From an uncultured Kordiimonas sp. (GTDB lineage Bacteria; Pseudomonadota; Alphaproteobacteria; Sphingomonadales; Kordiimonadaceae), in the NCBI GenBank assembly GCA_947492375.1, contig CANLMI010000002.1, positions 62,001-126,000 of the forward strand: a DNA stretch of 64,000 bases, given 5' to 3'. A model generated the notes under the pieces. It was not told where the DNA came from and did no database searches. It worked only from the letters and a program-made list of their open reading frames with translations. Of this stretch, positions 10,724 to 17,047 are shown piece by piece; positions within the stretch are counted from its first letter, which is position 1, and each line of letters begins with the position of its first letter. Both the position numbers and the translations under genes were made by a program.

Positions 10724-11980
10724 TTATTCTGCTGCATTGATAAATCCGTAAGCACTCAGTCGTGGAATACAGCTCAACTCTAATTCATATCGAGCCTTGG
10801 CAAAGACACCCAAAACCCTATCCAAATCCACACGGGTTAAGTTAGCATTTATAGTAAAACGCACAAGAGCTGCCCCTTCAGCCGTTGCAGGAGGCGCAAA
10901 TACTGATCCATATACGCCGTTTTGCGCAAGATAATCACGTAATGTAATTGTATCTGGATTTGACCCTGCAATAATAGCAATAATCTGACTATCACATTCG
11001 CCTACATCATACCCTAACGCCAACAAACCATCTCGTAAGTATGCATGATTTTCATGTAACTTCTCGCGGCGCCATGTTTCATTGTTTATGATGTCTAGTG
11101 TTTTTTCAAAGCCAGCAATTTCATATGCCAAGACAGATGTACTGAATATCATTGGAAAGGCCTCATAACGGAAAAATTCCATATTCCGTTTTGAACCAGC
11201 GACAACACCGCCCCTTGCAGCGATTGCCTTGGACAGACCAATTGTCCTAAAATGAATCCGGTCTTGTAGCCCCATCTCTACGGCAATACCCCCACCTGAT
11301 TCACCGTGACAGCCAAAGGAATGTGTTTCATCTAAAATTATTGCACAATCGTACTCTTCAGCTATCTCTACTAATTGTTCCAGCGGACATATTTTGCCGT
11401 TCGTACTATAGAGCGCGTCCACAACGATTAAACCCGGTCCATATCGCTTAACTTTACGGTGCAAGTCATCAACATTGTTATGTCGGAATGGCCGTGCCCT
11501 AGCCCTTGCGCAAGCTACCCCTTCCCAAAGGGACGCATGCGCTTTTATATCGATATAAATATTAGTTCCTTGCTTAGCAAAAGCCTGAATAATGCCAGTA
11601 TTAGCATTATAACCCGACATACACAGAACCGCGTCTTCGGTCTTTAAAATCGATGCCATTCGTGTTTCAAATGATTTGTAAGCATCCATCCGGTCATGAG
11701 TAAACACTCTGGACATAGCATCGCCATGCCCTTGTTCCATCAACATTTGAGCTTTTGCTGATGCAATCCGCTTATCAGAAGCAATTGACAAATAATCATT
11801 AGATTGCATTTTAATTGCATCATTATTTAAAGTGGCAGAGTCTCCTAATACAATATGTGAATGATGTTTATCTCGGTCCAATAAGAAACCTTGTTGAACA
11901 ATTTCATTTATAAAAAAGGGGTTTACTGGCGATTTACAATTTTCATCGACGCCACTACACTTCTGTATTGAATTCAGCAT
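10724..11980 (-). CDS. cqsA: CqsA/LqsA-like alpha-hydroxyketone autoinducer synthase (PLP-dependent alpha-oxoamine synthase family)
   Basis: 418 aa; NIYIDIKAHASLWEGVACARARARPFRHNNVDDL, RYGPGLIVVDALYSTNGKICPL, LDETHSFG, PLP-lysine region TIGLSKAIAARGG, SQIIAIIAGSNPDTITLRDYLAQNGVYGSVFAPPAT closely resemble recalled Vibrio cholerae CqsA segments; adjacent to a CqsS-like kinase. Confidence 0.85.
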   Translation of the reverse strand: MLNSIQKCSGVDENCKSPVNPFFINEIVQQGFLLDRDKHHSHIVLGDSATLNNDAIKMQSNDYLSIASDKRIASAKAQMLMEQGHGDAMSRVFTHDRMDAYKSFETRMASILKTEDAVLCMSGYNANTGIIQAFAKQGTNIYIDIKAHASLWEGVACARARARPFRHNNVDDLHRKVKRYGPGLIVVDALYSTNGKICPLEQLVEIAEEYDCAIILDETHSFGCHGESGGGIAVEMGLQDRIHFRTIGLSKAIAARGGVVAGSKRNMEFFRYEAFPMIFSTSVLAYEIAGFEKTLDIINNETWRREKLHENHAYLRDGLLALGYDVGECDSQIIAIIAGSNPDTITLRDYLAQNGVYGSVFAPPATAEGAALVRFTINANLTRVDLDRVLGVFAKARYELELSCIPRLSAYGFINAAE

Positions 11981-12090
11981 ATGGAATCCTTTCTAGAGTT
12001 GCTGATGACATTAAGAAAGAATAGTGTAATACTAAATATTGCTAACGGAAATATAGAGATAATGAATAGTCAGTATTTATCGAGAAAAAG

Positions 12091-13344
12091 ATGTTTCTGA
12101 AAACTAACCCAGTATATGATTTTGAATACACTCAAATAAAAGTACGGATGCTATCTTTATTAGCAATGTTAGGTTTCCCTACATATTATTATATTTGGCA
12201 ATATTTACTACCTCAGCAGTACGAAAACCTTACTTTAAGAATAGTCGGCACCATCTTTGGAATAATTTGCTTTTCAACAAGCTTTTCAAAAGATGAAACA
12301 AAACAAAAACACTTTAAATTACTATATTTTTTCTTATTCACATACAGCCTACCGTTTTTTTTTACTTACTTATTCTTGCAAAATAACGCTAACGGAGCTT
12401 GGCTCGGCTCATTAATTTGCGCTATTCTTTATCTCGCATTGATAATGAATCTGTCCAATTTCATAACCATGACTGCCTTTGGTGCAGGAACTGCTGTTAT
12501 TTATTTTTTACTTTCATCTAATACAGAAGTAGATATAGTAAATTTACTTGAATCAATACCAGTTATTATCTTTGCAATACTTGGCGGCTTAGTAATGAAA
12601 TTCTCAGAACATTGGGCAATTACTTCAAATCGCAAGAAAGCTATTGCATTAGCAGGATCATTAGCTCATGAATTAAGAACACCGATGTTGGGTTTAAAAA
12701 TGGAAATAGATAATTTCATACATTTACGAGAAGAACCAAATGAAGATCCATCATCAAACCTAAACGAGGATAATTATGCAGAAACATCTCAACGACTCCA
12801 GCGGCATATTGCTAAGTCATCTCTGATTATCGATAGTTTACTTCAAAACGTTAAAGAAGAAAAAATTAACACAAGCGCCTTTGTTTCATATTCATTAGAC
12901 ATGATTATTCAAGATGCAATTGCACACTTTCCGCTAACCGAGAAAGAGAAAAAACTCATTCATACTGACACTAAAAATGATTTTCATTTCTGGGGCGATG
13001 ATTTACTCATGTCTCATGTTATTATGAATTTGCTGAAAAACGCCCTTAGGGCAGTTTCGATCGCTGATCGGGGTACTATTACCATTAGCCTAAACCCTGC
13101 GGATAAAAAAGTAGACCGAAACAAGTATAATACACTCATCATACGAGATACAGGCACCGGCATAAAACGCAGAGAAGTTGCAAAAATATTTGACCGCTTT
13201 TACTCAGGCCCAAAAGGTGGGATCGGTCTTGGTCTTGCCTTCTGCGCTAGAGTGATTAATAGTTTCAAAGGAACAATCACATGTCGGTCTGAATACGGCG
13301 AATATACAGAATTCGTCATTCGATTACCACGGGAGGAAAACTAA
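12091..13344 (+). CDS. cqsS: CqsS/LqsS-like sensor histidine kinase (multi-TM sensor, no receiver domain)
   Basis: 417 aa; N-terminal AMLGFPTYYYIWQYLLPQQYENLTLR resembles the CqsS sensor domain; H-box AGSLAHELRTPMLGLKME, N-box NLLKNALRAV, G-boxes DTGTGIKRREVAKIFDRFYSG..GIGLGLAFC; ends after the HATPase domain. Confidence 0.87.
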   Translation: MFLKTNPVYDFEYTQIKVRMLSLLAMLGFPTYYYIWQYLLPQQYENLTLRIVGTIFGIICFSTSFSKDETKQKHFKLLYFFLFTYSLPFFFTYLFLQNNANGAWLGSLICAILYLALIMNLSNFITMTAFGAGTAVIYFLLSSNTEVDIVNLLESIPVIIFAILGGLVMKFSEHWAITSNRKKAIALAGSLAHELRTPMLGLKMEIDNFIHLREEPNEDPSSNLNEDNYAETSQRLQRHIAKSSLIIDSLLQNVKEEKINTSAFVSYSLDMIIQDAIAHFPLTEKEKKLIHTDTKNDFHFWGDDLLMSHVIMNLLKNALRAVSIADRGTITISLNPADKKVDRNKYNTLIIRDTGTGIKRREVAKIFDRFYSGPKGGIGLGLAFCARVINSFKGTITCRSEYGEYTEFVIRLPREEN

Positions 13345-13347
13345 ACA

Positions 13348-14394
13348 ATGCCATCGCCATATAATCCCGACATGCCATTTTTTCACCCATGCAGCACCCT
13401 CATACTTGATGATGATGAGGACTTTCTTGGTTCTATGCGTACCTTTATTTCACGCCAAGCCGCCAGTCTTTGTTATTCTTCCCCAGGTCAGGCGATGCAA
13501 AAATTGTTTCATACGCAGGAAATAACAAGCGAACTTCATGAGTTTTTCTCTAAATATGGTTACGGTGTCGACGGGAAAAGTGTTGAAACTGGTGACTGTG
13601 TTGTTCTGCTTAAATCATCAAAGCTTCGACAATATACGCAATTGGAAGATCGCTTTAAGATGATTTCAGTTGTCATCGTCGACTATCAAATGCCAACAAT
13701 GACTGGATTAGAATTTTGCCGGGCCATTGCTGATATTCCTGTCAAAAAAATTCTCCTGACCGGTAAAGCAAACACAGATCAGATTATTAATGCCTTTAAC
13801 GAAGGATTGATTGACCGCTTTATTTCCAAAAGTGACCCTGATGCTCTCGCAAAAATTACCCAAATGGTCAAACAGCTTCATCAGGAATTTATCGGGGACG
13901 CGCTATCACCCTATGCGAAAGCATTGCGCGTTGCCCATGCCCAGGAATTTGAACAGCATGATGTTAGTGTTGTTCTGGATCAAGTTTACGATCAATTCCC
14001 TTTCACTGAATATTATTACCTACCACAGCCCAGAAGTTTTCTTCTATGCAACGGAGAAGGCGAAACAAAACTTTGCCTGCTGGCAACCGCACAAGAACTG
14101 AGTGACCTCGCAGGCGTTGTTGAAAGCTCAATCGGTGACGGGGCAGCGGCCAAGATGCTACGCTCTGGCAAGGCAATCACATGGGGCCTATTTGACTGGC
14201 TGGAAGGCAGTGAAAGCCCAAAAGGTGCGCCGGAAAATATCTTCTTTCCCTGTCATACATATAAAACCTGGAAATGGACACTCCTGCCACCGACCATGTT
14301 TACAGATAATACCGAAGGTCAGGCGCCGTCATGGAATGAATACCGCAAACAAACGATGAAGTTTCCGTTTAACATAGCTGGGGATGCTGCTTAA
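13348..14394 (+). CDS. LqsR-like response regulator: enlarged receiver domain plus uncharacterised C-terminal domain
   Basis: 348 aa; LILDDDEDF acidic pocket, VVIVDYQMPTMTG phospho-acceptor (Asp112), KKILLTGKA, DRFISK; starts 3 bp after the kinase stop. Confidence 0.75.
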   Translation: MPSPYNPDMPFFHPCSTLILDDDEDFLGSMRTFISRQAASLCYSSPGQAMQKLFHTQEITSELHEFFSKYGYGVDGKSVETGDCVVLLKSSKLRQYTQLEDRFKMISVVIVDYQMPTMTGLEFCRAIADIPVKKILLTGKANTDQIINAFNEGLIDRFISKSDPDALAKITQMVKQLHQEFIGDALSPYAKALRVAHAQEFEQHDVSVVLDQVYDQFPFTEYYYLPQPRSFLLCNGEGETKLCLLATAQELSDLAGVVESSIGDGAAAKMLRSGKAITWGLFDWLEGSESPKGAPENIFFPCHTYKTWKWTLLPPTMFTDNTEGQAPSWNEYRKQTMKFPFNIAGDAA

Positions 14395-15441: not shown

Positions 15442-15710
15442 AATAATACATCAACGTTCACATCTAGCACATAAGTATATGTGTGTACAAAGCTCTTCAA
15501 AAAATACAACTTATAAAAAATTCAATATAGTTCAGTATATCTAGTTTTATGTAAGTCCATGTAATTATGATTTAAAATCATCTAGATACCGTATAAGTAA
15601 AATAAAACACATACCGGCTTTAAAATTTTCAATATTTTTAATACTTGAAATTGTATTTAAATCCTGAAAGTATAATTTACTCTACTAAATTTTATAATTG
15701 GAGGAATTTG

Positions 15711-15869
15711 ATGAATAAAATGAATAGAACAGAACCCCGCAAAAGTATGCTCGCAAAGATCGCAACAGAGTTAACTGATCAAGAAATCAAATCTGTAACA
15801 GGAGCTGGATGTACACTACCCAGTCACAGCTTCGTTCCAGACGAAGATTACTGCCCGAACGATAACTAA
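15711..15869 (+). CDS. Putative ATP-grasp RiPP (graspetide-like) precursor peptide, 52 aa
   Basis: MNKMNRTEPRKSMLAKIATELTDQEIKSVTGAGCTLPSHSFVPDEDYCPNDN; ATG at 15711 preceded by GGAGG at 15700-15704 (supplied ORF start 15645 lacks this); next to an ATP-grasp ligase. Confidence 0.75.
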   Translation: MNKMNRTEPRKSMLAKIATELTDQEIKSVTGAGCTLPSHSFVPDEDYCPNDN

Positions 15870-15880
15870 GTCATAAATTG

Positions 15881-15908
15881 GCTTTGCACATCAAACGGTG
15901 TGCAAAGC
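15881..15908 (+). terminator. Hairpin between RiPP precursor and ATP-grasp gene (attenuator or terminator)
   Basis: Perfect 10-bp inverted repeat GCTTTGCACA-tcaaacgg-TGTGCAAAGC followed by TTTATT. Confidence 0.75.
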
Positions 15909-15937
15909 TTTATTAAAACACAGTAAATAAACAAACC

Positions 15938-17047
15938 ATGCAAATCATAATCGTCACCGCACCAGCCGACATCGATGCAATCAGCATAGAAATACAGCTA
16001 CGAAATAAAGGTATTGATGCTCATAGAATTTTCTTTTCAGAGCTCGGGCACACTCAAAGATTAAGTTTTACACTTCCAAAGAAAAAACTCTCACTCACTA
16101 CCGCTGAAAATAAACAAATACATATAGAGCCTGATATTATATGGATGCGAAGGCCTCGCCCGCCTAATCCAAACAGTAATCTTAACGCTCAAGATGCTGC
16201 TGCAGTACACGCAGAAAACGTCAATGCAGCCCACGCAATACTTCAAAGCTTGTCGAAAACAACACGTTTTATCAATACCATACCAGGCAGAGATCAGGCA
16301 CGTTCAAAAACTTTACAATTAGAATATGCGAGTGAATTAAACTTTGCTATTCCGGACACGCTAGTGACCAATTGTAAAGATCATATAATTAACTTTATCA
16401 AACGTGATCAAGTGCCGGTAATAATGAAGACATTTGCACCGATACGATATTATGAAAACAAGCGAGTTAAACCTGTATATGCAACCATTATTACCGAAGA
16501 AAATTTGGACGAAGAACCAGAACTTTTGGATCAAGTTTCTATTTTTCAAAAAGCCATCCCTAAAGCATACGAAATAAGAGCTCTATTTTTAGGTAACTAT
16601 AGTATAGCCGTAAAGTTAGACACACAGTCCCATGCAATGGGTAAAGTTGATTCGAGAAGAGCAATGGCCGTTGAAAATGAACTCGATGGTCAATTAATTG
16701 AGCTTCCTGGTATATTAAAAAATCAATGTATCCAGCTCATGAAAAAAATGGGCTTGGTTACCGCTTCATTTGATTTAATCGTCACGCCCAATAATGAATA
16801 CATTTTCCTGGAACTCAACGAAACTGGCCAATGTATATTTCTTGAACAGTATAGAAACGTTCCCAACATTTTGGAAGCATACTGTGAGTTTCTAATTCAC
16901 CAAGGAAACGCTTTCAAATTTATGCCTATTATAGATCCTTTAGCACCAACTGGATTAAGTTTAGTAGAGCCAGCAAGAAAAATCGCAAAGCAGGAAATGG
17001 AAAACTATACATCTAGAGCAAGCCACGTTAATGCTGTCAGATTATAA
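15938..17047 (+). CDS. MvdD/MdnC-like ATP-grasp peptide ligase (RiPP maturase)
   Basis: 369 aa; N-terminal pre-ATP-grasp region, DIIWMRRPRPP, VIMKTFAP, IRALFLGNYSIAVKLD, FDLIVTPNNEYIFLELNETGQCIFLEQ characteristic of microviridin-type ATP-grasp ligases. Confidence 0.85.
   Translation: MQIIIVTAPADIDAISIEIQLRNKGIDAHRIFFSELGHTQRLSFTLPKKKLSLTTAENKQIHIEPDIIWMRRPRPPNPNSNLNAQDAAAVHAENVNAAHAILQSLSKTTRFINTIPGRDQARSKTLQLEYASELNFAIPDTLVTNCKDHIINFIKRDQVPVIMKTFAPIRYYENKRVKPVYATIITEENLDEEPELLDQVSIFQKAIPKAYEIRALFLGNYSIAVKLDTQSHAMGKVDSRRAMAVENELDGQLIELPGILKNQCIQLMKKMGLVTASFDLIVTPNNEYIFLELNETGQCIFLEQYRNVPNILEAYCEFLIHQGNAFKFMPIIDPLAPTGLSLVEPARKIAKQEMENYTSRASHVNAVRL

Follow-up and report, generated by a model that had tools for sequence, protein, structure and literature searches.

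The gene at positions 13348-14394 of the window (the whole 64,000-nucleotide stretch of DNA from an uncultured Kordiimonas sp. analysed here) encodes a true LqsR-family response regulator, and it is almost certainly the lqsR gene of a complete alpha-hydroxyketone quorum-sensing cluster (lqsA, lqsS, lqsR) in Kordiimonadaceae. Membership of the LqsR family follows from a full-length sequence relationship, from the receiver residues and from a fold that includes the output domain. The cluster is regarded as complete because an LqsS-type kinase gene lies 3 nt upstream and a hydroxyketone synthase gene is located divergently next to it. An earlier note on this DNA had described the gene as an LqsR-like regulator and did not mention the two neighbours. 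The relevant features are as follows.

10724..11980, minus strand: lqsA/cqsA, PLP-dependent alpha-hydroxyketone autoinducer synthase, 418 aa (PRK07179, CqsA structure; PLP-lysine candidate K251)
11981..12090, no strand: lqsA-lqsS divergent intergenic region, 110 bp, presumably carrying the promoters of both genes
12091..13344, plus strand: lqsS, 417-aa membrane histidine kinase with a hydrophobic sensor at the N-terminus (H193 within HELRTP; HATPase_c)
13348..14394, plus strand: lqsR, response regulator, 348 aa (ORF, PDB sequence match, AlphaFold, Foldseek, residues)
13348..13902, plus strand: receiver domain of LqsR, beta2-beta3 stretch enlarged (residues 46-104; AlphaFold elements, Pfam Response_reg 104-169)
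13903..14391, plus strand: LqsR-type output domain, no Pfam family (isolated-domain model; only PDB match 6sy9, LqsR)

Identity of the regulator and its receiver

The lqsR reading frame starts with ATG, 3 nt past the stop codon of the kinase gene, and is preceded by the Shine-Dalgarno-like stretch GGGAGGA. The best sequence match of its product in the PDB was 6sy9, the structure of Legionella pneumophila LqsR (E 1.7e-26, runner-up E 1.2e-05). A profile made of the window LqsR and nine homologues, which contained no Legionella pneumophila sequence, matched 6sy9 with an E value of 2.7e-89 over positions 8-335, i.e. almost the full length. Pairwise identity to Legionella-type LqsR proteins was 20-30%, and about 24% to L. 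pneumophila LqsR. The AlphaFold model (mean pLDDT 81), when compared with known structures as the earlier note had proposed, had its best Foldseek match in 6sy9 (E 6.7e-19, TM 0.65/0.73, the value of 0.65 being moderate), followed by receivers at about E 1e-6. The nearest solved relative is thus LqsR both by sequence and by fold, as the earlier note had supposed.

The positions given in that note for the acidic pocket and the phospho-acceptor proved to be accurate: LDDDEDF occupies residues 20-26, and VVIVDYQMP begins at residue 108, which makes D112 the acceptor. The receiver residue set is complete (D21/D22, D112, T138, K161), and D22, D112, T138 and K161 were invariant among the homologues (alignments A1 and A5). 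The spacing between D21/D22 and D112 is 90 residues, whereas the acidic pair and the phospho-Asp of CheY are about 44 residues apart, so the receiver of LqsR has an excess of about 45 residues. The enlargement recognized in the earlier note is therefore real, although its size, put at 35-40 residues, was slightly underestimated. In the AlphaFold model the extra residues are placed between beta2 and beta3, where a long helix (46-69) is followed by a loop of low confidence (72-86) and a pair of short helices (90-104). The receiver spans residues ~12-185 and the output domain residues ~186-348; the only Pfam match was Response_reg at 104-169.

D112 aligns with the Asp at chain residue 128 of 6sy9, the acceptor, which is consistent with D108 (PMC3376566) shifted by what we infer to be a 20-residue tag. 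The late acceptor is thus common to the two proteins (D112 here, D108 in L. pneumophila LqsR), and the position near 108, which the earlier note had given for Legionella, was correct. L. pneumophila LqsR (6sy9; Hochstrasser et al. 2020, doi 10.1111/mmi.14477) resembles the protein studied here in length, in the enlarged receiver and in the output fold.

The lqs cluster and its distribution

The product of the divergent gene matched the NCBIfam equivalog PRK07179 with 452 bits (cut-off 428). LqsA is homologous to Vibrio CqsA (3hqt, 2wk8), and its nearest PDB structure was 3hqt (E 2.7e-84). LqsS has a hydrophobic N-terminus, H193, N and G boxes and HATPase_c; its homologues in other genomes are paired with LqsR. 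W104 was invariant in ten LqsS homologues, and W104 and S107 share residue numbers with head-group residues of V. cholerae CqsS (PMC3376566), a correspondence based on numbering only. Vibrio CqsS is a hybrid kinase acting through LuxU/LuxO, whereas LqsS has no fused receiver and its partner is LqsR. In L. pneumophila lqsR is likewise clustered with lqsA and lqsS, but there hdeD is inserted between lqsR and lqsS (PMC3376566), whereas here lqsS and lqsR are adjacent and lqsA is divergent.

Except for lqsS, which is AT-rich (GC 0.352, window mean 0.438), the lqs genes do not appear clearly foreign by composition. The promoter and terminator scan returned chance-level numbers, and sigma-70-like matches in the lqsA-lqsS intergenic region were no more frequent than expected by chance. 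This region contains AT-rich candidate inverted repeats. Rfam families were not found within the window.

Since a true LqsR sits together with a partner sensor kinase and a signal synthase, this Kordiimonadaceae bacterium very probably signals to its kin by a hydroxyketone, by analogy with Legionella and Vibrio. LqsA would convert an acyl-CoA and an amino-acid-derived substrate to a CAI-1/LAI-1-like alpha-hydroxyketone. Binding of the signal by LqsS, presumably a multi-helix membrane histidine kinase, would alter the balance of kinase and phosphatase activity at H193; from there the phosphate state would be handed to D112 of LqsR, and LqsR would dimerise. The C-terminal domain of LqsR, which has no DNA-binding motif, would relay the signal by protein or nucleotide contact.

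In the genome from which the window was taken (3.94 Mb), LqsR, full-length LqsS and LqsA each occur once. A scan of genome contigs with the single protein gave no relative. A congener has retained the divergent lqsA / lqsS-lqsR arrangement (85, 73 and 82% identity for lqsA, lqsS and lqsR, respectively), and Kordiimonas gwangyangensis has it as well (60, 45 and 43%). The conservation of lqsR at these two levels shows that the reading frame is not a chance one. LqsA was detected at E 1e-60 or better in three of 30 Kordiimonadaceae genomes, and the lqs cluster is missing from most of the family. In four other Kordiimonadaceae genomes (K. marina and three MAGs), lqsR has no lqsA nearby, and the genome gives no strong match to LqsA. 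The decoupled lqsR of two or three of these genomes adjoins genes for a histidine kinase with a GAF domain and for a HisKA-REC protein (loci L043/L064 and L045/L065), and in one of them (L043) it adjoins an FeeM-like N-acyl amino acid synthase gene; one decoupled copy is interrupted by undetermined assembly bases.

These decoupled genes bring up the question whether the window LqsR, too, could serve another kinase or signal (e.g. AHL) rather than the adjacent LqsS and LqsA. Such decoupling is documented in Ralstonia and Cupriavidus (PMC10653808): PhcX of Ralstonia solanacearum, which also belongs to the LqsR family, is associated with phc genes instead of lqsA/lqsS. Besides the four family members with lqsR next to other kinases, the AHL-synthase matches in the organism's own genome (see below) would fit such a role. 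In contrast to the PhcX case, the lqs cluster, with lqsA and lqsS, is intact here, only 3 nt separate lqsS and lqsR, and a second full-length LqsS was not found in the genome, nor was an LqsT-like full-length kinase, in which it differs from L. pneumophila. A PhcX-like role is thus very unlikely, and assignment of LqsR to the adjacent LqsS and LqsA is preferred.

Two regions of the genome scored above the cut-off of PF00765, the AHL synthase family (C3:366379-366789, L079, and C4:386176-386508, L080). Judged from these matches, the organism may use AHL quorum sensing in addition, and the Lqs system is perhaps not its sole quorum-sensing input.

The Lqs system, the structure of LqsR and the question of its output have been published, and so have LqsR proteins (PMC10653808) and lqs clusters of Alphaproteobacteria. 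Orthologues are already on record from 310 proteobacterial genomes, including 16 from Alphaproteobacteria (PMC10653808), and the window LqsR adds a member to a known system. A complete Lqs-type hydroxyketone cluster is now placed in the marine Kordiimonadaceae. As these bacteria are not known to cause disease, they would allow work on the circuit, including its unsolved output step, outside pathogens. The occurrence of intact (three genomes) and decoupled (four genomes) lqsR in one family provides a natural test set for the output contact.

More distant LqsR proteins were found across Alphaproteobacteria, several of them in small genomes and in up to five copies. Two small alphaproteobacterial genomes of 1.4-2.6 Mb (G250 and G085; loci L050 and L056) have five LqsR-like genes each. 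LqsR is also plasmid-borne in Legionella, Massilia, Polaromonas, Rhodoferax, Burkholderia, Rhodanobacter and Dyella. The loci on plasmids of Polaromonas and Dyella (L059, L061) and of Massilia, Legionella and Rhodoferax (L057, L058, L060) consist of LqsS-LqsR pairs or a lone LqsR, and LqsA was not found within the stretches examined around them (L057-L061). It is possible that plasmid LqsR/LqsS without LqsA serve for eavesdropping on signals.

The output domain

The C-terminal part of LqsR (residues 186-348) matched no Pfam family, and nothing significant was obtained. Outside the receiver, there was no Pfam or NCBIfam match to HTH output domains of the OmpR, NarL or NtrC type, in agreement with the earlier note, which had seen no recognisable HTH in this part. 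Modelled in isolation, the domain had a lower confidence (pLDDT 73.5), and its Foldseek comparison with the PDB yielded only 6sy9 (E 5.1e-4, TMq 0.47), all other matches being no better than E 0.35. There were no GGDEF structures among its 50 best matches. Neither Pfam GGDEF nor a GG[DE]EF signature was found in LqsR, whose hairpin region reads EYYYLPQPRSFLLCNGEGE, and a GGDEF search of the own genome identified eight genes elsewhere without listing lqsR. Confident matches to HTH, GGDEF or HD-GYP domains, any of which the earlier note had named as evidence against its reading, were thus absent, and the structural similarity to LqsR was clear.

In the literature the output domain of LqsR is likened to the cyclase domain of PleD: a five-stranded antiparallel sheet with a degenerate GG[DE][DE]F motif, for which cyclase activity was not found (PMC10653808). 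Putative binding of nucleotides has also been described for it (PMC11237717). The likeness to GGDEF/PleD was not recovered by the search with the isolated domain; as this gave 6sy9 alone, our own data provide no ground for claiming homology to GGDEF or nucleotide-binding domains. The earlier note was right to call the output mechanism unknown, and the same applies to all members of the family.

A further proposal is that the LqsR output domain, matched in isolation by LqsR only, has a distinct fold and acts as a non-catalytic sensor of nucleotides or proteins. In Kordiimonas the LqsR family would then have been put to new use where the hydroxyketone synthase is missing, next to a HisKA-REC protein and in one genome or more to an FeeM-like acyl amino acid synthase, a hint that LqsR can serve other lipid-like signals. 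We consider this proposal rather improbable.

That the protein is a generic response regulator with a degenerate GGDEF output, which is convergent with LqsR and lies near the synthase gene by accident, is extremely improbable: the full-length fold search also listed PleD and WspR (PA3702), and the published PleD-like output would agree with it, but the match of the whole protein to PleD may be explained by the receiver, 6sy9 was ahead by 12 orders of magnitude in E value, the isolated output domain had no other credible match, no GGDEF model matched LqsR in a genome with eight GGDEF genes elsewhere, and the cluster with lqsS and lqsA is conserved. LqsR membership is therefore retained.

Downstream of lqsR, the window contains at 15645-17047 a gene for an ATP-grasp ribosomal-peptide maturase (TIGR04187/MvdC-like, 149 bits, below the cut-off). 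It is preceded by a small ORF ending in LTDQEIKSVTGAGCTLPSHSFVPDEDYCPNDN, a possible precursor of the graspetide type.
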